In this document: positions 8,401 through 51,889 of the stretch, piece after piece
How positions within the stretch are numbered: position 1 is the stretch's first letter
Layout of the letters: each line of letters opens with the position of its first letter
Source of the DNA: Clytia hemisphaerica
Lineage: Eukaryota > Cnidaria > Hydrozoa > Leptothecata > Clytiidae
DNA length: 64,000 nt
Reading direction: 5' to 3'
Assembly (NCBI GenBank): GCA_902728285.1
Contig: CACVBU010000998.1
Location: forward strand, 310,001 to 374,000
Position numbers and translations under genes: made by a program
Notes under the pieces: model-generated
What the model saw: only the letters and a program-made list of their open reading frames with translations
Database searches by the model: none
What the model was told of the DNA's origin: nothing

Positions 8401-11400
8401 TATCTAAAAGTGAGTTAAAGAAAGACTAAATGAGCGTCATTTTAGCAAAGCAATACCGATTTAAACTATGCATGATCAATAGGAAAGTTTTTACACACCA
8501 CTTGCTCACAATCCAAGTGAAACTTTTTCTCTCAGTGGGGATAAACATTTCTATCGAAATCCAAATGAGGATAGAAAATCTATTTTTCAAAAAGTTCAAC
8601 AACGTCAACAGAGATGGTTTTGGAGTGCAATTTAAACCGCCTAATTTCGAATGGGAATAAAATCGTTGAGGAATTTCTTCCACCGGGTAAGATTTTTGGC
8701 AAGTTTTTGCAGTTGGTCATTCCGTTTTGGGTTTGTGACACAGGGTCGTTTTTACAAATTACTATCCTGAAATCTGTTCTTCCTGGAGCAAATCAATTGT
8801 ACAAAGGTGTCAATATCCCAGACAGAACTTAACTTTTCGAAATCGAATGCACGATTATATCATATCATCGATTATGAAATCGTCTGAATCGCAAACTACT
8901 ACTCTACAAACCACACCGAACCAAGATTAAATTTTAAAAACCAACCAAACGGTCTGAGAGACGAACCTTTTTCATTGATATCGCGTTGATGACTCTGTTG
9001 AATGATTTTTTGCCACAATGGAATGTTTTCAGTTGTTTGTTTCGTGTTCCACGTGTGTACGCGTTGCCTGTGAAAAAAAGGGTGTTCGGGCTATATAAGT
9101 TGATACTTCTAGGCTAATATATACCGATGCCTATGAAATAACTCGATTAGAAAACAAACGTATGTGCGGACAAAGTTTTAAGATCTCAAACATTGCACAG
9201 AAAATTTATCCGAATTTGGTGCGTTTTTTTAAATTTTCAGTCCATGATCAAGGGCATAATGGTTTATAAATGTTCCACAATTCTGCCTAAAAACTTCGTT
9301 TTTCTCACCATCTTATTTATACCGACCCTTACATTGCACTTTGGGAAGCCTGTAAAACTTACCCTTAAAGACCACATCCAGTAAAGCTTGAGTGCCCAGC
9401 CCATTCTAAAATGTCTATTACAAGAGTTCATTCAGTCCTGATTGCTCTTGAACTGAGCTTTATTTTCGTACGAAAAAATCAGACTAGAAAATATTTCACC
9501 TTTTGAAGCTCATCTGTTGTTTAGACGTGTTCGAATGAATTCCAACTCGAGAGGGTCCTCTCACAAAATTATTATTGACGTCCAGCTGATTTTCAGTCGT
9601 CTCATTCTTATTAGCATTGGCCGCTGCTTGACCCCCTGTTCCAGTTGTTGTGGTACCAGTTTCCATAGAAACAAATTCATCCCAGGTTTCTGGTACTCTG
9701 TATGATTGTTGCTGGGACATGACGGGTGATTGATTTTTGTTGTGTTTGTTATAGATAGTGATTCTAGAGAAAGAATACGTACATAGTTCAACGGGAGAAG
9801 GTCCCACTTTCCGGAAGTAAATCTAGAATTAACTGTATATACATCAGAGACGTACACTAGTCTACATTAGAGAGATTATAAATTACATTCTTAGGGTCAT
9901 TCTTAGGCCCTAAGAATGTAATTTATAATCTCTCTAATGTAGACTAGTGTACGTCTCTGATGTATATACAGTTAATTCTAGATTTACTTCCGGAAAGTGG
10001 GACCTTCTCCCGTTGAACTATGTACGTATTCTTAGGGTCAAAACTACCCAGTCATAGCTGAACTACGCTAGTTGCTCTTGAGATTTCGTAAACTTTAATA
10101 GAGCTATAGCTATACCAATCCTTATAAAAATGCTTTTTGGTTTAAAATAAATTTGTTCTTCCCTATGGATGATCAAAAGGCATTCTTTCCGTTCTTTCGC
10201 CAACTCCCCTTTGAAAAGACGGACTAGGAAAATAAAAGAATAGGTTTTATAGGTTTTAGTAACCAGTCCTCCTGACAGATATCGCTCTTACTTTCTTCTG
10301 GAAGATGTCATAGGGTTGGGACTATTGGAGGCGTTCATTCGGCTGGGCGTTGCGTCTAAAGAGATTGGTGGCAGGGTCTTCGAAGAGTGACGAGCTCTGG
10401 CTACATGCCAAAGCGATGGTTGACGTTGTCTAGAAAAAAATTATGTCTTGCTGATGAGATTTTAAATTAAGGATTTTAGATTTAGAAATCTTTGGAAATC
10501 ATTAGCCGAAGAAACTTATTGTTCATAGGGTCAAAATAAGCTCCAGATCGAATATAGTTATAGAGGTGGAAATACACTTACCTTTTATGACTCATCTGTT
10601 GTCTGGACACATTAGCATTCATCCCGCCATGTCTAGAAGGTGCTACCTTCATCCAATTGTTATTCACTTCTAGTTGTTGGTCTGCTGCTGTCAACGGAGT
10701 TGCTGGTTCCACTGTGATGAAGTCGTCCACATTCTCGACGTGCCGTGAAAAAGAAACGGGCGACAAACGTCGGTTTTGTTTGGAATTCGTTGCTGTACTG
10801 TGGAAGTAAACTTATTTAAATTCTTTGGTGAGGCTCGACTGTTCTCATTTTTCTAGCACTTTGACAATTTGACACCCTCAAATTGTTCTTATCATATTCT
10901 TATTTTTTGATTGAAACTAAAACTTTTTATAGAAAGCGTAGTTACTTTACTTCTATTAACATAACTATGGAATGATCGTGATTGGCTGGCTTACTTACTT
11001 TCTAATTCTGGGTGTGGCGAGGTTTGGGCTACCAATCTCACTATGGCGACTTGTGCTTTCATGAAGATTACTAGCATGTGGTATCTTCGTTCCGGCGTCT
11101 CGGGTTTTGGGCGTTGTGCCATGACTTAACGATTCGTGGCGTTGAGATAGGATGGAAAGACGCCCTGTTCGCCGGTTCTCGTAGAAATTAGAGTTCTTTA
11201 AACTTTTCAGCGCGTCCAGTGAGAGAGGAGTCTATGAAAATCAAAGTTATAGCAATTGAACCTGTTTGAAATTGAAAATTCATGAAATGCATTGCGACGC
11301 GTGAAGACATTGCAAGGGTGCATATCATGATGAATAATAATACCGAAAATCCACTGCTGTAAATAACACACAAATGTGTTTCACAGCCTTGAAGTAGTAG

Positions 11401-14400
11401 AAAATTAAGAATTTCAAGTATGTACTTTTTGAGGTACATTTTATTCAAGCTTGTTTTAAAAAAAAATGGTTAATCTTACATCACTATTAGTTCGAGAGCT
11501 TTCGGCCTTTTTATTAGGTCATAAGCCTCAGAATTTTAACCATCCTCAACGTGTTCGCCGTATCGAATACTGTCAAAAAAGTTTCATCAGATCGAACACT
11601 GGCGGTCTCTTTGATCTCTACGAGCCCAAAAAAGAGGTCAAAAAAGGGCTTAAATCTAGGTCATAAGCCTCGTGGCTGAAATTTTACAGGTGATTAGTAC
11701 AACCCTTAGGGACAATGAAAATCGTAGAGATCAAAGAGACCGCTAATGTCTGATCTGACAAAACCTTTTTGACAGTTTTCGATACGGCGAACACGTTGAG
11801 GATGGTTGATATTCTGAGGCTTATGACCTAATAAAAAGGCCGACAGCTCTCGAACTATATGTATGAAAAAGAAATTAAATTCTATCTTGCACTTTTCCGA
11901 CCCTAAATTTTGGAAACATTATCTTTATTATTACGACCGATCGACTCTTACCTTAGTTTTGAGATCTCTAGGTCGCATGTTTTGTACAATCTTAAAGATA
12001 GTGACTATATTCTCCAATTTCTCAGCGAAATATCGGTAGCTTCTTGTTTCTCTGAAAGAGGAAGTATAACGTGTCCTTTAGGTAGGCTTGAAGAGTTTTT
12101 TTTCCAAGGAAAATAATGCGAAAGTCACACAAAAATCCTGAGTTTGATCAGTTTTTTTTAATAACGAATGCGTTGAAAACTACTGCAACTTGGTAGCCTT
12201 TTCAAAGCCAAAAAATTATGCTTACACCAAAGAAAATATGAATTCCCAATTTTAGCAATGAAATCAACCTTGGCCTAGGGCTTATCGTTAAGCATGCCGC
12301 CTAATTCGAATATTTGGAATATAAAAAATTATCAGAAGAAGTTCAGTTAGTTAAGTAGACCCTAGGTTACGAAAACACAAACTCACGTTTGATTGTCAGT
12401 TTGACCATCACCACTTTGTTTCTCATCATCCGTGGTCAAATTGGTTACAGGGATTGAGTTCTTTTTGCAGGAAGGATCAATCATCACCATATCATCATTC
12501 CAATCTCTCCCTTGTTGTCGTTCAAGCTCCTGAGAAAAGACGATAAATGGGAATCTTTAGTCTAGACGATGGACTTTCTCCTTTGCCACACTCTAACTTT
12601 TGACGAATATTGACAGAAAATCAACTCGTCTCATATTTGGCAATAATTTAGGCCTAATAACAGTGATTAAGTGATTAAAGGAAAGTCTTTTTTGTCTCAG
12701 ATGGAAACAACCTAGCTAACCAAAATTCTTCGAAATTTGTTGAATTTGGAGATCGAAAAACCTCTTTTGTACCTCGCTGAGACAGGAAACTTTGTACATT
12801 ATTGTAATAAAGCTAAATTCCTTTTTTAGAGGAACGTAGAAAGATTTTCCGTTGAATCAGATGATTATTTTCATCCAAGAACAAAACAAAGTACCTTTTC
12901 AGCGTTTTCTTTGACCAGTTGGTCGGCCAATTTCTGTCCGGCTTTGATGAAGGTGATTCGCTTTTCAGCTCTTCTTAACCTTTCCTTGATCAGCGAAAAA
13001 CCATTGTCAATATCACGCTCGTTCTTATTCGACCGTGCGATGGACAGGTGGGATGATTTTTGCTGCTGAAAGGGTGATATCAGTAAATGTAAGTAAGCTA
13101 AGTAAAAGTAAAACTAAGACTAAATCCTTATCTGAGGAGATAATCTCCAAGCCTGTGGAAAATACAAATAGGTTCTGCTGTTGAAGCGAATTTACATCCG
13201 GTAGACTTAGCGGTCTTCGAAACTCACTCACCCACTCACTCACTCTCCTGGCGTTTACTGTCTCTTTAACGGATGATGACATCGATAACAATATATAGCC
13301 ATAGATTTATAAAACCTGAAGGGCTAGATGGAGTACGTACCTTTGCTGAAAAGTGTGTCGTGGTTAGGTAAGAAATCCTACCTAAGTCACGTGACATTAC
13401 AATAGAATTTAAGCGCTTTACCAATAAGAAGCTTTCGCGGGTTTTCGAAAACAATAGCAACAATATTTCTTCAGATATTCACTTTTTTTTGCCTGCGATG
13501 ACTTAAAGTCCGACATCTAGTCCTTGGGGCTTTACAAATCTATGTCTATAGCGGTCTTTTTTATGGGAAGTTTCCTTTATTGCATCTCCTTTATTGTGGC
13601 TGTAGATGTCTGTAATGACTGGAAACACCCATCTATTGATTCAACTTTTGGATTCAATCAAATCAAATGACGACTTTCAGTTGGTTAAGACGCAAAAAGC
13701 TCCACAACTTGAGACAAACAGAAAGACGTAACGGGAGCGCAGTGGTCCTGATGACAAGTGATTTTTTTCGACCGTGAAATACCCTCTAAACCTTACCTGT
13801 TGATTTGCTTGCGTAGTGTCTTTATTTTCTTCTTGACGTGCATTCGAACGGTTTTCATGCTGAAATGAAGATGGAAATGTTTTAGTAAGCAATCAAGCTA
13901 AGTGATTAGACTACGGTGCTCAGGTCGTTAGCACCTTTTGAAGTATACTGGATAACATCTCCAGCATTGACTCCAGTTGGGGGCGTACATGAGTCACCTA
14001 CACAGAAAAAGCGACAGTTTTTTTTAAATAACTGACAAAATCTTAAAATTGAATCGAAAAACCTACAGCTTGTTTCTTCAAACACTGAAACATCGACTTA
14101 AAAAAGACTAATACGTCGAAACACCGTTAAACCCGTACGCTACCTAAATACACGCTTAATAAGTTTACATTACATGTATCCTGATTAGACCTTTACCTTA
14201 TCGGGAAAATTTTCGTCGGGGAAAAATATTCGTCACTTGCTGGTAGTTGGTAAACGCATTTAAGGCCGGGGAAAATTTTCGTCGGGGAAAAATATTCGTC
14301 ACTTGGCCAAAATTTCGTCACTTTTCCCCGACGAAGTTTTCCCCGATAAGGGCAATTAACTTTTGCTGGGAAAATCGGGATTCTGGGAAATTATACTTAA

Positions 14401-27086: not shown

Positions 27087-27428
27087 CTATTTCAATGCAA
27101 GAGGGTTTTTCAAAACCAAAATCACTGAATCTCCACGTAGAAACATTTTAGCAATATATCTGTCCTTGTTGATAGGTTTTGCTTTCTTTCCTTTTCCTGT
27201 TTTGGGGATTTCATACCACATTTCTTTAACATTTTCCAATACCATGTTACAATGTCTATCAAAAGCTTTCACACGACCCAATAACTTTCTGTTGTTTCTG
27301 CAGTTTATGAGTACTTGAGTATTATTCTTCACAGATGACATCAAAACAGATAGGGGTCCAGTCTTGAACTCCTCCTCTTCTCGCTGTTTCAATTCTTCAA
27401 ATGTCAGTTCACTTTTTGGTTTCCCCAT
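27087..27428 (-). CDS. SNRPD2: Small nuclear ribonucleoprotein Sm D2
   Basis: Sm D2 is one of the seven proteins of the Sm ring on U1, U2, U4 and U5 snRNAs, acting in spliceosome assembly in the nucleus after snRNP maturation in the cytoplasm. The 113-residue frame carries the family signature throughout: [19 protein letters not shown], the Sm1 region ([20 protein letters not shown] then [16 protein letters not shown]) and the Sm2 motif ([12 protein letters not shown]). It ends NPLALK, close to the usual 118-residue length. A clean acceptor (TTTTCAG) lies just before GTTAATGGGG, so the real start may be in a tiny upstream exon, adding a few residues as in vertebrates; the ATG at 27428 is the alternative. 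The upstream exon was not found. Confidence 0.95.
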
Positions 27429-27828
27429 TAACCTGAAAATTTGAAAAACAGAAAAAAACATTTCACTATCATGACTAAAACCTTCAATTTCGTAGGAAGT
27501 ATTGTTGAATAGGGTTTTCTTTCTGCAGATATTACCAAAGTGCAACTGGTAAACTAAAATAGCAGTGTAAATTGTATAATTTTTACAGACAGTTCATCTC
27601 CATCAGGGCCTATCTGAGAGCAAAGTGCCAAACCCTCCCAGGGAACAGGGTGTCCTCCGTGTGGGGCTGAGCAGCTGCTGGAAATTGTAATTGTGGTTCT
27701 TATTTTGCCCAGTCAATTGAAAATTTGAGATCTACATCTTGATTTTTTTGGGTTGCACTTTTGTTGAGTTTGACAATGGAGACATTATGTAATATTTTAG
27801 TAAATTACTCAATGATTTAGCGTTGTTT

Positions 27829-30812: not shown

Positions 30813-32610
30813 GTAAGCACAAAAGATATTCTTTTTATAATTAATGATATTAATTGAAACACGCTTCGGCAACTAACTCGCTTTCTGTTGGAAGATTATA
30901 TTGGGCGTTTTGGCGTTACCACCCTTGAAGCAGCGGGTGCCTTTGTCTTTCCGCAACTCTTTCCACCATTTTAGATGGCCTCAACGATAGATTCAAAAGG
31001 GCGCCATAATCTTGGAAGATAATTTGTTTTGGTCTCTGGCTTTGGATTGGGAATAGCAATGTTTTTGGTTGTTTTCGTTGGAAAATGATAAGAAACTTAA
31101 GTTTACAAGTATCATTTAATTTTTGCTAGCTTATAGAATGACAGGATCCTGGATGGTTTCCCTAACTGTATATTCGTCAGATTGTTATGTTTTCACCCAT
31201 CTCATATATAAATAGAGATCTGTACAGAACCTACCAAATCAAAACCAATTCAATCAAATCCATTGTTAATAAACACTTTCGCTTTTTTTAATGTTCAAGG
31301 ACTTTGCCCCCAAACTGTTCCGAGCAAAGTCCCTTTTATAACAAACAATATATGCAAAAATTTATTATTTATTGGACTTTCTGAAACCTGGCTTCATAAG
31401 GGTCATAAAGGTGCAGAACTTCAGATAGAAAATTTTACGTTATTCCGCTTTGACTCTTCAAGAAGGAAGAAAAGCAGAGGAAGACACACTGGTGGAGTTT
31501 GTTTTTATATAAGGAAAGACATCGGAGCATCATTTTGAAGAACTTTATACATACTCTTCAAAAACATTTCAACTTCTCAGTCTATACTCAAAAGCTGAGA
31601 ATATGGCCCTGCTGGTTGTCTACCGTCAACCAGACGATAGAAGCAATGGAAATCCATCAACGGCTAATAATTTTACTACCCCACTCAATGGAGAAAAACT
31701 GGCTTTGACAGCATTAGGATCCAACCCAAGTATAATTTTTGGTGGTGACTCTGGGTGACTTCGACCTGCCCAAAAGCTACATGGCCAGCTGGTACACCAA
31801 AATCTGGCTGTCCTTTGGATGACAGAATCGTACTAAATGCTCTAAATCTATTTTGCAATGACCATTTCATCTCCCAATATGTGGACACTTCCACACATAA
31901 AGATGGAAACATACTTGATCTTGTTTTTACAAACAATGAAAACATTATCCACAACTGCACAACAGTTCCTGTCCTACAAAGCACATCACACCACCAGATT
32001 GTTCTTGTTGAGCTTTTACACAGTAACTCGCAAAACAGAAAGGCAAAAATCAAAGAGGAGTTGCTACAAATTGGGAAAAAGCTGCAAAAATCTTTCAAAG
32101 ACTCAAAGCAATTTGCTGAAAATAAAGCAATTGAATCTATTAAAAAGAATTCCAAGTATTTCTTTGCATACGCCCGCAAGAAAGCAAAAGTAAAGACCAA
32201 AATTGGACCACTGATAGACAACAATGGAAAACTTACAATAAAAAATAAAGAAATGGCTGACTTCCTTTCGAAACAATACTCTAAAGTATTCAGTCGACCT
32301 ATGTCACTAGATGCTGAATCCTTTGATCCGGGAGCAACCAAAATTTCAGAGATAGTGGTTACAGAAGAAAATATAATGAAAGCCATCAATGAGCTTTCTC
32401 CATCCTCAGCTGGCTGGCCCAGATGGCTTCCCAGCTATATTTCTGAAGCATTGCAAAGAGGAATTGGCTTTCCCGATGTGCCATCTATGGAAAACAAGCC
32501 TTGCAAAATTAAAGAAATCAACCATTACCCCCAATCTACAAAGGCGGAAATAAGTCAATGGCTTCAAATTATAGACCAGTTGCACTAACCTCAGGCTTTG
32601 TCATTTGAAA

Positions 32611-39485: not shown

Positions 39486-39996
39486 CACGGATCTTCAGTG
39501 GATAGTATTAGAAGATTCTTCCAAATTTAGATGAAACTTTTTGAACAGGAAGAACTAGTGTTTCTAATTGGGAGATCCCTTGCTTTAATTAGGCTTAGTT
39601 ACAACTTGATCTTTCTGCTCTTTGGTGTGAAGTGTGACTTCTGAACTGGTTTCAAACTTCCTATTTGGACTGCTTCAAAAGAAATTTGACAATCAAAGCA
39701 AATTTGAATTTTTTTCCCCTGATTAAACCCCTTGAAATTCAATGCTTTATCATCAAAGAATGAGTTTTTGTAGCTTCGCTTAAAATTCATTTATTTCCCA
39801 AACAAAGGGCAGGATTAAATTTCCAAGAATTCAAGCTACTTCTTACTTTATTCTAGTGGTGGATACTATTCATCTACTCTTGTTTATTATACGAAAGAGT
39901 AATATGTTTTTGCCTTCCTTTGTCAATTTTCTTTACCTGGTACTCATTCTTTCTCATTTCTTGTTTTTTAGTGTAGGTACATAAAAAAAGAACAAA

Positions 39997-42347
39997 ATGT
40001 CTTTGGCGGATGAATTATTAGCAGATCTTGATGACATTGAGGATGAAGAGGTTACAGCCAATGTTGAGGATAATGGTGATATCCAGGAAATTATGGAGAC
40101 AGATGATCTCCAACAACAACAAGACAACTCCAAGTCTGTCAGTCACATTGCACGGCTTCGGGACAGCAATGAGTTCAAAGAGACTTTAGAGAAAATGAAT
40201 TATTACTTAGAGAATCCAAGGAGCCGAGACACTGTGATGGGTCCTGTTGAGGAAGACCCTGAATACAAATTGATTGTAACTGCGAATAATTTGACAGCGG
40301 AAATCGAAAATGAAACAAGTATCATTAATAAATATTGTAGGGATAACTATTCCAAACGATTCCCAGAGTTGGATTCTCTTGTCACAAATGCCTTAGAATA
40401 CATACAGACAGTCCAAGCACTGGGTAATGATTTAGATTCAAATAAAATTGACAATTTAGACTTTTTACCGCCAGCTACTCGTATGGTTGTCAGCGTTACA
40501 GCCGCAACCACACAGGGCGAGCAAATCGGACAGAATGAACTGGATAATATCAACGAAGCTTGTCAAATGAATATGGACTTAGTAGATGCTAAAATGAAAA
40601 TTTTCCAATATGTAGAATCGAGAATGTCCTTTATTGCACCGAATGTGTCGGTAGTTATTGGTGCTTCAACTGCAGCAAAACTTATGGGTATTGCTGGTGG
40701 CTTGACCAATTTATCTAAAATGCCTTCTTGTAATATCATGCTGTTGGGATCTCAAAAGAAAACATTGTCCGGATTTTCGACAGCTTCTGCACAAGTGTTG
40801 CCACATACTGGATTCATTTACTACAGTGATATCGTTCAGGTAATATCGATATTATTGCACCGAATTTTCTCTTGTTTTTGTCAACTTTCAGTTTTAACTC
40901 TTTTCCAAACTCAGGAGATTTGAGGAGTTTTACATTTTCTGGAATAAATGATATCTTGTTTTGTTTCTCTTTAGTGATTTTCGATGGGGAAATTTTTTAA
41001 TTTGTTAGAGATACTATATATCGATGTACCTTTACACTTCTCAGGAAGACGTAAGTGGCAAGAAATAAAGTAATACTCTCTGTGTTCAAACTTCTTCCGT
41101 CTCATACGGATTTCCGTCTTAGTGAAGTAAATAAAGAGGTATTTCCGTCTCAGGCGAAAAACATTGGTTTGACCACTGACTAGTCTTGTGATAAAAAAGA
41201 TGACTTTTCTTCTTATCAGGGTTTACCACCATATTTGCGAAAGAAAGGAGCTCGATTGGCATCTGCTAAAGTAACATTGGCCGCTCGTATCGATAGTTTT
41301 CACGAAAATCTTGATGGTTCTGCTGGTCGAAAACTCCTAGAAGAAATCGAGAAGAAATTTGATAAGCTTCAAGAACCGCCCCCAGTCAAGGACGCCAAAG
41401 CTTTACCACGCCCAGATGACGCCCCACGCCAGAAGCGAGGTGGAAAACGGGTCCGCAAGATGAAAGAAAAGTTTGCGATTACGGAAATGAGGCGACAAGC
41501 TAGTCGCGTGACGTTTGGAGAAATTTCTGAAGATGTTTATCAGCAGCATGTTGGATTTGGGATCGGCTCCTTGGCTAAGGAAAGTGCTTCGGGTAAAATC
41601 AGGAACCCTAATGTTGATAAGAAGACGCAAGTTTCGATTTCCAAACGTTTACAGGTATGGATACTTCTTGTCATTATAAATGAGTGTTGCAACTTTCCCG
41701 TCTTTAGGCGGGAATGCGTCCAGCTGAGATTTTTCACTTTAGTCTTCTATAAACCTTGGAAGAGCGAAATTCTTAAATGGTGATTGCAACACTGATAAAT
41801 GACTGTTGCATTTACAGTAACATTTAACAGTGTTAGAATTTCTTCCGATCACAGACAGATTTGCCCCTCAGTGAAGCACATTCCGCTAAAAAATTCGATT
41901 TAAAAAGATCTCATAACAAAAACTTGTGTTTTTTGGTTTTATGTATGCTACAAATAATACAAAACGGTATTTTTATGCGAAAAAGGATACGAGGGGGAGG
42001 GTTCTCATTAATACTTAACATTAATTGTCACTGATTTTTCTTCTTCTTTCACATAACAGAGAAATTTGGCGAATATGAACCAATCGTATGGTGGTAAATC
42101 AACAGTGCGTGGTCAAGTCTCCGGTACTGCGTCTAGTGTGGCTTTCACACCTTTGCAAGGGATCGAAATCGTCAACCCGAAAGCTGCAGAAAAACGTGTT
42201 CAAGAAGCTAATGCTAAATACTTTTCAAATCAAACGGGATTTTTTCGGGTTAAGAAGAAAGATCAAACGAATGGTGAAAGTGCGACAAAAAGTTCAGCTT
42301 CTTCGTCCTCAGCGACTTTTGCTAAACCAGCACCACTCAATAAATAG
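39997..42347 (+). CDS. PRPF31: U4/U6 small nuclear ribonucleoprotein Prp31
   Basis: Prp31 binds the U4 snRNA and the 15.5K protein and bridges U4/U6 to U5 in the tri-snRNP, in the nucleus. Exons 39997-40839, 41220-41654 and 42060-42347 join in phase 0 to give 521 residues (human about 499). The start MSLADELLADLDDIEDE is typical. The NOSIC/coiled-coil and Nop regions include SRMSFIAPNVSVVIGA-like (ESRMSFIAPNVSVVIGASTA), GIAGGLTNLSKMPSCNIMLL, TGFIYYSDIVQ and LPPYLRKKGARL. A nuclear localisation signal QKRGGKRVRKMKEK lies at about 352-365. The C-terminus has the family block GTASSVAFTPLQGIEIVNP and a Ser-rich tail. An acceptor (TTGTTTTTTAG) at 39970 implies a 5' untranslated exon upstream. The frames running on into introns 1 and 2 are read-through and not coding. 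Confidence 0.97.
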
Positions 42348-45850: not shown

Positions 45851-48800
45851 ATGGATTTGGAGAGGTAAATTTAGATAATTTGTGAATTAACGTTCATATA
45901 ATTTCTTCAAATTTTCATTTAGATTATACCTTGTTTTGTATGAGTTTATCAATATTCTGACCCTAAGGGAAATAGTAGATTTGAACGTTTACGGGAAAGA
46001 TTTATAACGGTTATAACCTTAGTACACCCCTTCTCATAGACCTGATTGTTTACAGCCATTGGGGGGGGGGTAAAAATAACGGACTGAAACTCGATCGGGA
46101 TTGAGTGTTTTGTATGGTTGGGAATTTGAATTGTTTTCAAGTAACTGTATTTTGCGGGGATATTGAAAAAAATGTACCAATATTTAGGAGTGAGGATTTC
46201 ATTATTTGATAATTTTCAGCGGGGACAAAAATTGGAGTATAACTTTCCACTGGAAGCGATATTTTGGTCAATTCTTCCAATGGGAAAGGGACCATCAAGC
46301 CTGTGAGAAGGAGATTACATTGCGAGTTGTATATGATAGGGTGAAACTTCAAAATTGTAAATGTTGACCTTTTCATTATCTACGCATGTCTCAAAAGTAT
46401 CACCAAATTCTCTACCCTATCTCACTTTCAGTTATTATGGCTCATCCTCCGTCCAGCAACATCAACAGCAAGCATCATTCAAAAATCACATGACTTCAAG
46501 TCAACAATATCACGAATCTATGACTTCAAGTAAAAAAGTCACCAAAAAGACAACCACAACATCGTCCAATTATGAAGATTCATCAAAAACCTCTCGTCAC
46601 ATGGAAGCTCAGGATATTTTGGATGAGGATTTCTTAAAAGAACAAGAGTTTATTGAGAATTACATTGAAAGTTCTCTTAAAGAGAGTCGTGAGCGCTCCA
46701 TAAAGCACAGCCAGAAGACATACACCCAAGATACATCTTTCGAGGAACGCAAAACGAACAACAAAGTGTCAGTCAAAGCGATCAAAGGAACAGTAAATAA
46801 ACAAACCAAAAAAGATGACGTCATCGATGGTTTCCAAAAAGTCACCGTCTCGTCAGGGCCCAATGAAGTCAACCATTTCTCAAGAAGCATATCTCACGAT
46901 CCGGAGAATGACGTCACTAGTAGCAGCGAAGATGACTTTGATGACGTAAGCCGAGAAATGGTAAACGAAGATATGATCGTACCTCAAACAGACCCAATGA
47001 ATGACCTGTCCGGTGAACGGTCTTTCGAAGAGATCTACGGACAAGATCAAAACCATAAGAATGTTTACAAAGAACAGACAGTCAACATCAAACTGCGTAA
47101 AAACGAAGATCAGAAACAATCCAATCAGCAGCAGTTCTTTGATGATCAACCAATCAGAATGAATATTGATGTGTCACGTGATCGAAATCAACATCAGTAT
47201 CATCAAGTGGATGGCCACGATCACCAAGCCAATCAACATCAACAATTCACTAAAAATGAACCAATCAAAATGCAGATCGGTGTGTCACATGACCAACATA
47301 ACCATCACCATCAAGTGGATCATCACAAACACCAACAAACCAATCACCATCAGCACTTCACCAAAAATGAACCAATCAAAATGCAGATCGGTGTGTCACA
47401 TGACCAACATAACCATCACCATCAAGTGGATCATCACAAACATCAACAAACCAATCACCATCAACAATATACTAAAAACGAACCAATCAAAATGCAGATT
47501 GGTGTATCACATGACCACCATCATGGGCACACTCACCAAGATCAATCATTCGAAGAAATCACTTATCGCATACCAGTTGAACACAACCACGGCTATGATC
47601 AACAGGACGGTGTCAGCAACAGACGTGTCCAAGTCATGGTTCGATCACCACGAGATGGACAACCTGATTTCGAAAACCATGGAACAACCACCAAAGACAA
47701 CCGACTTAGTGTCAACGAATCTCAAATCCCTATCGACATTCAAGTCCAGCAAACCAGTACCAGACCTGGTGCGATTCGAGTTATGGTTTCTCCGAATCCA
47801 CATTCTCAAGAGAAATCATCAACAGGCTTCAGACCAATTCAAAAGAAAGATTCACCAGAGTTGCATAATCATCAACATGTGATCACCATCAAACCAACAG
47901 CTGTTCGTAAGAGTTCAGATTCATCAACACACTCCTTGGAGAATCACCAGAGCCATCATCACCAAACAAACAGGCAAACACATAACGTGTACGGTCAAAA
48001 CACATCCTCAGAGCAATACCACAGTCTGCAGCACCAACACAATCGTAAACGAAGTGATGATTCAGAACAAATAGAAATCATCAGAAGTATCCGTAAATCA
48101 AGTCTTCCAGAAGGTTTTGATTCGGATTCAGAATTCCGTCGTGAGACAGATTTACAACTGCAACGACAACGTGACCTTCAACAACGTATGTCACAACGCC
48201 AACACAACGAGGCACGTTCATTACAACGCAATCAACAAAACAGTGAATACTACAAGCAACAACAATATCATCAACAAAAATTGATGCAACACCAACAACA
48301 TTTACAACGCATTCAACAACAACAACAGAAAAGGAAACAACAAAGTGAAGAGAAGCGTTGTGAAGGTAAGGAAATACTTAAAATGTTTGTCAAATGTTTG
48401 TGCCAGCCTCGTCCCCGTGTATCACAGGTTTTATTTACGTTATAAATGAACGCTAGAGTTTTATCTGGCGCTATCAGCAAGCATCAAAAAGCCAATAATG
48501 GACAGGGAACGAACGTCCTTGCAAGTCGTAGTCAGAGATGGCCATGTAATACTTACTTTCATAATCGGTAATTCAAACTAGCCCTGCTCGTTATGTTATA
48601 CTCGTTTATGAGATAAAATACCAGAAATCTCATATCTATATGTTGAATCTTTTCAAAACTTTCAGAACAACTTTTCACTAATAGCCTAAAACATAAAGAA
48701 CTGGGTTGCACATGTTTTTTTATTCAAACCAAAAAAACCCTTCATATTCTTTCATTCTACAGGGGATAAACATGCACATGTTGTTCTAAACGGACGAGTA

Positions 48801-51800
48801 ATGCGACGCCATTCCTTTGATAACTCTTCGCTCACCGAAAGGAAACAGGATGACGAAGAACAAAAATACATTGCAGAACATCAACAAAGAAAAGTCAAAA
48901 CACAGCGCGGTGAACGCCAACAAACGCGCGTCCGTCGTCTGTCGTACGAACAAGAACGAGATAAATTGGAAGAAGAGTTGAGACGCTTACAAAAGAAAGA
49001 GGTTCGAAAACAACAACAAGAAGAAATTAGAAGCAGCAAATCAAAACAAAACTATCAACAAAATGAAAACTACCAACAACAAATTGATCTACAACAACAA
49101 CATCAACAAAGAAGTCAAAGCAGTCAACACTATGAAAATCAAGAAATGTTCCAACAACAACAACATGAGCATCAGCAATCTAAAAATCATCAACAATATC
49201 GTCAAAATCAACAACTCCTCCAACCACATCAACAACGGAGTTCAAAACAACGGGGTCAACAACAAATTCAACAAACCACCACCACCACTACAACAAATAT
49301 TCACGATCATCAAACAAGACAAAATGAAATCTTCAACGACCATCCTCAACAGTACTACAGTCAATCTGCATCAAACACACCTGTCATTCAACGTCGTAAA
49401 CTCCTCCCAGACAACCAACAATATCCAGCATCTGCTAACACAACTCCAAACGTTCAACGTAAACGTGGTAAAATCCCCAACGTTTTGAAAGTTGCATTCC
49501 AGAGTGAAGATATCATAAATACAGGCACACAAAGACGTAAGTCAAACCCAAACATCATTCTTGGCCGAACAGACATCAATAAACAAAGAAATGAAATGGA
49601 TATTACACACCATAGCCATACACTACCCAGAAATTTCGGCACAAAGAAGAAGAACCAGCAGATCAAAACAAACACGGTAAGCTAATCTACAATAACAGTA
49701 GAGTCTCTCTAACTCGAATGTCTCCTTAACTCGAACAAGTTTTCTTATCCCTTCAGTTAATAATGACTTAAAAACCAATCTTCATAACTCGAGATTTCAT
49801 TAACCCAAACAAATTTTTGTTCCCTGTGCGGGTTCGAACTATGGAGATACAAAGCATCTAAGTGGACTAAGTAAAGCGTAGATCAGATTTCGAAGCATCT
49901 TGATGACTTTGATAACACCAAAATCAGTCCATACACCGGGATAAATTGCGGTTCAAAACAAAATGACATAACCTTCAAAATTTATTAGACTGACCAGGTA
50001 CACGCATAATCATTCATCTCTAAAAGAACTTTTTACAAAATCAGAACCACAAATAAACTAAGCTTTCCTGTAATATATATGTAATGCATATCCTCTGTAA
50101 TCAATTTTTGACCCTTTCTCAACAGTTGACAACAACCAGTACAACAACACGCTCAACGCGACCCTCGCGATCCAACAAAGATGTCAAAAGCAGAAGCAAC
50201 AGTTTGGGTAGTTCACATTCCTTATCAATGTCAGTACTTGACGAAAGTCGAATGAATAAAGCTCAACAGAAAATTATTGAGCAACAAAATTCTAATGTTC
50301 AGAATTATATTGGTCAACAAAATAATGTCAACCAACAAGCAATTCAACATCAATACGATCATAATCAACAAGTCAATTCAACAAAAAGCAGACAACAAAA
50401 TGTTGAGAACAATACCAACCAGCAAACCATTCAACATCAATACGATTATAATCAACAAGTCAATTCAACAAAAAGCAGACAACATGTCAAGAACAATGTC
50501 AACCAACAAGCAATTCAACATCAATATGATCATAATCAACAAGTCAACTCAACAAAAAGCAGACAACAACGCGTTGAGAATCGTGTTGGTGTTTCAGTCA
50601 ACAAACAACGACATGTACAACAACAACGTGGTCTCACAACACATCAAATCTTAGCTGAAACTATGAAAGCACAAAACAAACAACAAGCTGTTTCAACAGA
50701 AAATGATGGTCTTACCATAATCAATGGTAGTCATTTCAAGAAAGAGCAACCAATACGAAAAACAAGCACAGCCTTTACCAAGCTGACAAAACCACAACCT
50801 AAACGACCTACACCTAATAAACCAAAGCGTGTTGAACCTGCAAAACCAAGACAAGAGGATGTGTACCAGTCAATCAAAGTGTCCGCAAAAGGGGGTGTCA
50901 TTACATTATTTTCGGACAAAGATTCAAAGAAAGTGGAAGTTTCAGATTCGATGAAACAGAATATCACAACATCAATGTATGGATATCACCAAAGCCATAA
51001 AAGTAAACACACATTCCAAGACTCTAACGAACAACATTCAACTTGTTATATCGAAGATCATGATTCAACCGCTTACCGTGACACCGTACAGTGGAATGCA
51101 GCTCCAGGTTATCAAAACGAGCAAGACACAGAGTTGGTCTACTATACTGTTTGTACACACTTCTTTCATCCTGAAAACAACGATTGGATTCAGAAGATTC
51201 ACCGAATGGGTCAAGCACGTGTTCCCAAGAATCGTCCCCATAACGAGAAGTGTATCTTCTTGAACCATTTGTATGACCCAGATAAAGAGGAAATCATTGT
51301 CCATAAAGTTATCAACCAAAACCAACAGATTATGGGATTGGACCAATCAGACAATGTACCGCAGTATCAAAATAAAAGAAGAGATCCGGTCCTGATTAAC
51401 AACAATTTCGAGCAACAAAGATCCAATCAACATATGCATGAGAACCAGCAATCGATGCAAGGGGTCTACGGACAACACCAACAAAACATGTCTATGGCAA
51501 ACCATGGATCTCATGACCAACAACATTTACCTATACCTTCAGCAGGGTTGAGGAGCAGAGCTGACAGTCATAATAGGAGCTGGGTTGACCAAGCGTTCAG
51601 TGATGCTTACGATACAATGAGTGAACGAATGGATACAACAGGATATTCAACAACATTCGATGAACTGGACACTGCCTTTGATGCTCGATCTATTGATTCA
51701 TCAATCTCATCCAAGAGTGGTTACCAGAATCATACTCAACAACAGAGACAACACTTTCAACAATCTGGTAATTCAGTTCAACAACAAAATCAATATCAAC

Positions 51801-51889
51801 AACAACAACAACAACAACAAAGAAATATCAATAAAGATTATGCAAAGTTTATTAAACAACAAATGAATACTTCATCGGAAGGACGTTGA
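45851..51889 (+). CDS. Large Gln/His-rich repeat protein, 1541 residues, function unknown
   Basis: Exons 45851-45864 (MDLE plus two bases), 46432-48365, 48763-49676 and 50126-51889 join in phase; the tiny first exon is inferred from phase and a GTAAAT donor. The protein is mostly low complexity, rich in Gln, His, Asn and Ser. Three exact-length 37-residue units start at 47249, 47360 and 47471 (TKNEPIKMQIGVSHD then His-rich). Related short strands (QPIRMNIDVSRD, RVQVMVRSP, AIRVMVSP) surround them. Exon 3 has a basic coiled coil (EEELRRLQKKEVRKQQQEE). Exon 4 has 28-29-residue repeats (IQHQYDHNQQVNSTKSRQ). One compact, less repetitive stretch lies at about 50860-51330 (YQSIKVSAKGGVITLFSDKD, YYTVCTHFFHPENNDWIQK). 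I do not recognise the family; a structural or scaffold role is a guess. AATAAA signals follow at 52124 and 52167. Confidence 0.75.

Follow-up and report, generated by a model that had tools for sequence, protein, structure and literature searches.

A predicted intron on the minus strand of a 64-kb stretch of the Clytia hemisphaerica genome (the window, all 64,000 nucleotides of which were analysed) carries a long perfect palindrome close against a 3′ splice site, which raises the question of how such a structure came to lie there and whether it has any bearing on the exon beside it. The first-pass annotation had described a perfect 126-base hairpin with an 11-nt spacer and a stem base five nucleotides from the acceptor AG, and both details were recovered. 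All 126 nt of one arm (9771-9896) pair with those of the other (9908-10033), giving 100% complementarity across an 11-nt spacer, and the AG lies at 9765-9764 with the stem beginning at 9771, leaving a gap of 5 nt (9766-9770). A detail absent from that annotation is a direct repeat of 13 bp, ATTCTTAGGGTCA, whose two copies lie at 9887-9899 and 10028-10040. The features of the locus are listed in Table 1.

Table 1. Parts of the palindrome and exons of the predicted host gene, in window coordinates.
Feature	Position	Strand	Basis or remark
Exon-proximal arm	9771..9896	-	Exact inverted repeat; intron positions -8 to -133
Spacer	9897..9907	.	11 nt, tcattcttagg; last 8 bases recur at 9888-9895
Distal arm	9908..10033	+	Exact inverted repeat; inferred new, inverted copy
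13-bp direct repeat ATTCTTAGGGTCA, copy 1	9887..9899	+	Sequence comparison
13-bp direct repeat ATTCTTAGGGTCA, copy 2	10028..10040	+	Its ATTCTT part is the putative template-switch return homology
Host intron	9764..10291	-	528 nt, from splice signals and phase; inferred 399 nt before the event
Exon A	10582..10797	-	216 nt; diverged paralogue of exon C
Exon B	10292..10429	-	138 nt; donor at 10291
Exon C	9500..9763	-	264 nt; frame-neutral, adjoins the hairpin
Exon D	8967..9067	-	Acceptor would be used if exon C is skipped
Further exons of the chain	13065-12895, 12529-12387, 12051-11952, 11231-10999	-	GT/AG borders, open frame

The host gene is a predicted one, its exon model having been read from the sequence alone, and consists of a chain of exons with GT/AG borders and a single open frame, which remains open when exon A, B or C is dropped. 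Exon C, with the acceptor ...TATTCTTTCTCTAG and the donor GTGAAATA, reads through without a stop and matches the phase of the adjoining exons, which also join in frame when it is skipped; this preservation of the frame is uninformative as to control by the hairpin. Exon C had been taken for one of a duplicated pair, and its paralogy with exon A is well borne out, with a protein score of 93 against a shuffle maximum of 50 (0 of 1000 shuffles reaching 93). Across the 65 aligned codons the two exons differ at 25, 20 and 43 sites in codon positions 1, 2 and 3 respectively, a pattern which suggests that both have been maintained at the protein level. Duplication of an exon pair, A-B into C-D, was tried and rejected, as exons B and D score 19, a value reached by 432 of 1000 shuffles, leaving support for the A-C relationship only. 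Because the exon pair is diverged and the arms of the palindrome are identical, a common origin for exon pair and palindrome is unlikely.

No Pfam family was found for three peptides of the host gene (E up to 0.1), nor a relative of its 455-aa chain in the PDB (E up to 1), and a 178-aa part of the protein gave three matches, all inside the same gene. Exon C contains an ATG and, hydrozoans being known to use spliced-leader addition (PMC11067881), it was also considered as a possible new start site or spliced-leader site. Elsewhere in the window there are open frames resembling, by eye, an Sm-D2-type protein (27087-27593, minus strand), part of a non-LTR retrotransposon protein (31749-32588) and a PRP31-type splicing factor (39985-41783, plus strand), as well as glutamine-rich open frames with tandem repeats of 111 and 84 bp (46361-51889).

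To place the stem among others of the same genome, stems running without interruption for 14 bp or more, with loops of up to 100 nt, were counted in 214,000 bases, comprising the window and 15 stretches of 10 kb (sets of 10 and 5); this sample is not random, as four of the 15 stretches come from the contig of the window (C692) and large contigs are favoured. Twenty-six stems were found, of which the longest is that of 126 bp, followed by stems of 23, 22 and 20 bp, and since it stands so far above the next longest in 214 kb a chance origin is excluded. Imperfect long hairpins are frequent in the sampled stretches. Among the pairs considered, which for three of the ten loci of the first set were the five longest, these include arms of 224 nt with 98% complementarity and a 228-nt loop (L011, 228-903), arms of 246 nt with 98% complementarity and a 95-nt loop (L023, 2326-2912), and 180-nt arms, 82% complementary, separated by only 5 nt (L024). 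The first two are candidates for young elements or for further fold-back events. What distinguishes the hairpin at 9771-10033 from these imperfect ones is its zero mismatches.

Two further kinds of hairpin were observed. A dispersed family with ends like TAGACCTTTTTTCAAAGAGG is present in three of the ten stretches (L006 2581-2766, L007 8757-8941 and L012 2044-2226), and an earlier intron of the host gene carries a 92% inverted repeat with 136-nt arms and a 98-nt loop (11488-11857). The latter is a member of an abundant MITE-like family, given that its first arm (11488-11623) has at least 43 matches in the assembly at 87-100% identity, its own two arms included, among the best 40 of 91 candidates scored. 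This arm served as a positive control for the genome search that the first-pass annotation had proposed for other copies of the palindrome arm.

That search covered the assembly of 417 Mb in 951 contigs, in which the window is positions 310001-374000 of contig C692, and returned the arm at its own two places only. Likewise, the whole intron matched only itself (E up to 10), the end motif TGACCCTAAGAATRYRWA has a single occurrence, here, and the paired motif CCCTAAGAAT-N(95-125)-ATTCTTAGGG was found at this locus only. As words of very high frequency are passed over and only the top-ranking candidates receive a score, the lack of further copies is strong but not absolute. It bears most directly on a transposable origin, in which the palindrome would be either a lone member of a foldback or MITE-like family whose inverted ends are long, or the doubled form of a 130-bp element bearing 10-bp ends. 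The ends of the distal arm do resemble short terminal repeats (CCCTAAGAAT...ATTCTTAGGG) and MITE-like hairpins are common in the genome. However, the multiple dispersed copies expected of a MITE or foldback transposon did not appear in the 417 Mb by DNA search, end motif or paired pattern, where the control gave at least 43, and by eye the 263-bp palindrome has no target-site duplication around it (flanks ...tctagaga and agggtca...). Membership of a transposon family was accordingly set aside on copy number, and a transposable origin of any kind seems very unlikely.

An assembly or library artefact, in which the second arm would be absent from the animal, is somewhat more plausible than a transposon, though still unlikely. 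The arms are identical and exon C lies at one place, so that the assembly offers no internal check; neither a second place for exon C nor a second haplotype lacking the insert was found in it. Fold-back reads, on the other hand, usually mirror all of the sequence to the end of the read, and here a different sequence continues on both sides, such that an artefact calls for a pair of joins, of which the second would fall on a 6-bp homology. The perfect identity of the arms had been read as a sign of youth, and this holds with one proviso: 0 of 126 positions differ, giving a 95% upper bound on divergence of 2.3%, which suggests that the arms are young unless gene conversion keeps them alike, a process which could mask their age.

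The reading preferred here is that the palindrome probably arose by a recent, local, single-event fold-back template switch, either in replication or in break repair. A nascent strand copying the 3′ end of the intron would have halted after 9907, within the second copy of a 12-bp tandem. Folding back on itself through a loop of 11 nt, it would have used 126 nt of its own sequence as template, from 9896 back to 9771. It would then have returned to the original template by means of 6 bp of homology (ATTCTT), with synthesis resuming at 10034 and a net gain of 129 bp. A four-point switch model fits the interval 9601-10400, with the points in the order 3-2-4-1 along the inferred ancestor. The descendant can be composed of a left part, the reverse complement of a nearby tract and a right part, a weak result by itself as it follows from an exact palindrome; by the same token, a letter-for-letter replay of the event is no test, since it follows from the palindrome and its flanks are taken from the window. 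The source tract lies at the same locus, the arm being found here only within the limits of the genome search.

It is the junctions which provide the test, and these show microhomology, with a 3-bp overlap (AGG) of the left and right parts and the 6-bp return homology ATTCTT. When the insert is removed in silico, a perfect 12+12 tandem repeat (TTCTTAGGGTCA twice) is restored in an intron of 399 nt, and this tandem in the inferred ancestor accounts for the 13-bp direct repeat. With the distal arm taken as old, there is no overlap and no return homology, and that reverse ancestry is disfavoured. The exon-side arm is thus probably the old one, representing the original 3′ end of the intron, and the distal arm the new. 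As exon C occurs at one place in the assembly, this ancestry is read from the junctions alone. Reading the event on the opposite strand should, by reasoning, give the same ancestor.

In 200,000 random trials a 6-bp homology arose 121 times at the fixed place and 3,017 times when any site up to 12 bases from point 1 was allowed, so the return homology by itself is moderate evidence for template switching. The inferred ancestral tandem is uncommon but not strange, as 163 of 213,616 positions of the sample start a perfect 12+12 tandem (a count that includes overlapping starts and excludes units of one or two letters). Some features sit less comfortably with the template switch. The fold-back starts nearly without priming homology (by eye, a single C-G and a single G-T pair), the 12-bp tandem must either have pre-existed or have formed in the same event, and 126 nt is long for short-range template switching. 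Self-insertion of a reverse-transcribed piece of the intron with a 13-bp target duplication was also considered and set aside, since only a few bases separate the copy from the sequence it derives from.

The confidence expressed above concerns the origin of the palindrome, and the functional explanations that follow are compatible with a template switch. If transcribed as predicted, the pre-mRNA would carry a perfect 126-bp duplex from intron position -8 upwards, the stem occupying positions -8 to -133 and -145 to -270. The first-pass annotation had placed the stem in the branch-point and pyrimidine-tract zone, which agrees with the pairing of -8 to -133, a span that takes in part of the pyrimidine tract and the usual branch-point zone. 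The predicted fold of 792 nt, exon included, has an energy of -349 kcal/mol, which is 21 sd below the average of 20 shuffled sequences (-175, sd 8.1). These folds are equilibrium predictions for a fragment without proteins, and in them the mean unpaired probability at the intron end is 0.23 with the insert and 0.44 without it over the last 20 nt, 0.12 and 0.35 over the last 40, and 0.08 and 0.40 over the last 60. The A and G of the acceptor have predicted unpaired probabilities of 0.19 and 0.09 with the hairpin and 0.04 and 0.00 without.

Such a fold could, as the first-pass annotation had suggested, make the hairpin a splicing switch that buries the branch point and pyrimidine tract and so sets the usage of exon C. 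In keeping with this are the stem base 5 nt from the AG, the frame neutrality of exon C, the strength of the predicted fold and the lower predicted accessibility of the last 20-60 nt, and the notion that RNA structure can steer which splice site is chosen is well established (PMC4615370). However, the AG is predicted to be mostly paired both with and without the insert, so the predicted effect on splicing is not one-sided, and a switch is considered doubtful, about as unlikely as an artefact. Alternatively, Dicer might cut the duplex to siRNAs, making the locus a nascent small-RNA source and a first step towards a hairpin RNA or microRNA gene. In its favour are the perfection of the duplex and its place inside a predicted intron, but the genome search gave no further long match to the arm and Rfam gave no hits at gathering scores in the 64-kb window, so this role seems highly improbable, a shade more so than a transposable origin. 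Equally improbable is the more far-reaching proposal that one replication slip has produced a hairpin which both masks the 3′ splice site of one paralogous exon and feeds Dicer, that is, a newborn splicing switch or small-RNA gene with its stem still free of mutation. Most likely the insertion is tolerated or does mild harm, and has evolved no role in regulation. It may lower the inclusion of exon C somewhat; without exon C the reading frame would stay open and exon A might compensate in part, two circumstances that could have let the insertion persist.

It should also be mentioned that contig C900 of the same assembly encodes, all in one orientation, nad6-nad3-nad4L-nad1-nad4-cob-cox1, the last being cut short where the contig stops, and fits code 4, which points to a hydrozoan host; this is based on 7,000 of its 14,551 bases, with cox1 assigned by a Pfam model and the other genes named by eye. 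For comparison, contigs with nad6-nad3-nad4L-nad1-nad4 and with cob-cox1 are described for the siphonophore Physalia, and the same source gives a second, sometimes partial, cox1 for Hydroidolina and a nearly identical gene order among trachylines (PMC4655093).

The type of mutation proposed for the palindrome is already known, and the points of interest are the length of the tract and its position at a 3′ splice site. In a brief search of the literature, none of the listed titles and opening lines of abstracts described a case of this kind, a result too thin to establish absence. The locus would be a readable case of a perfect long RNA hairpin from one mutation, with switch points and return homology still visible, and would offer a long tract of 126 nt for a short-range template switch in a non-bilaterian animal. 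The position of the copy on a 3′ splice site leads directly to the question of how much duplex an intron end tolerates.

Small-RNA hairpins arising by inverted duplication are reported in plants and have been proposed for cnidarians (PMC7713132). The present hairpin resembles these in having a perfect long stem within a (predicted) transcribed region, but its source is the gene's own intron end and not a target gene. Closer parallels are found in template-switch mutations, which can make perfect RNA hairpins in one event, an example being MIR633 (PMC8794818), and in which, as here, a reverse-complement copy lies beside its source (PMC7954356, PMC8794818). Events with point 4 before point 1 are described as tending to look like one large insertion, and this likewise matches the order found here (PMC7954356). 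In contrast, the expected copied length in the great-ape model of that source is set at 10, from earlier events, against 126 nt in a cnidarian host, and the direction of the present event is inferred without an outgroup. Double-strand breaks in yeast are reported to yield local inverted fold-back insertions with lengths from 10 to over 150 bp, about 5-34 bp in most cases (PMC11724301), a range which spans the tract described here. As in the event proposed for Clytia, these are local inverted duplications made by fold-back of a 3′ end with the other end joined by a few homologous bases, although the yeast insertions start at imperfect inverted microhomology of 10 bp and are closed by end joining with 0-5 bp, where the palindrome has at most two weak pairs at its start and a return homology of 6 bp (PMC11724301).
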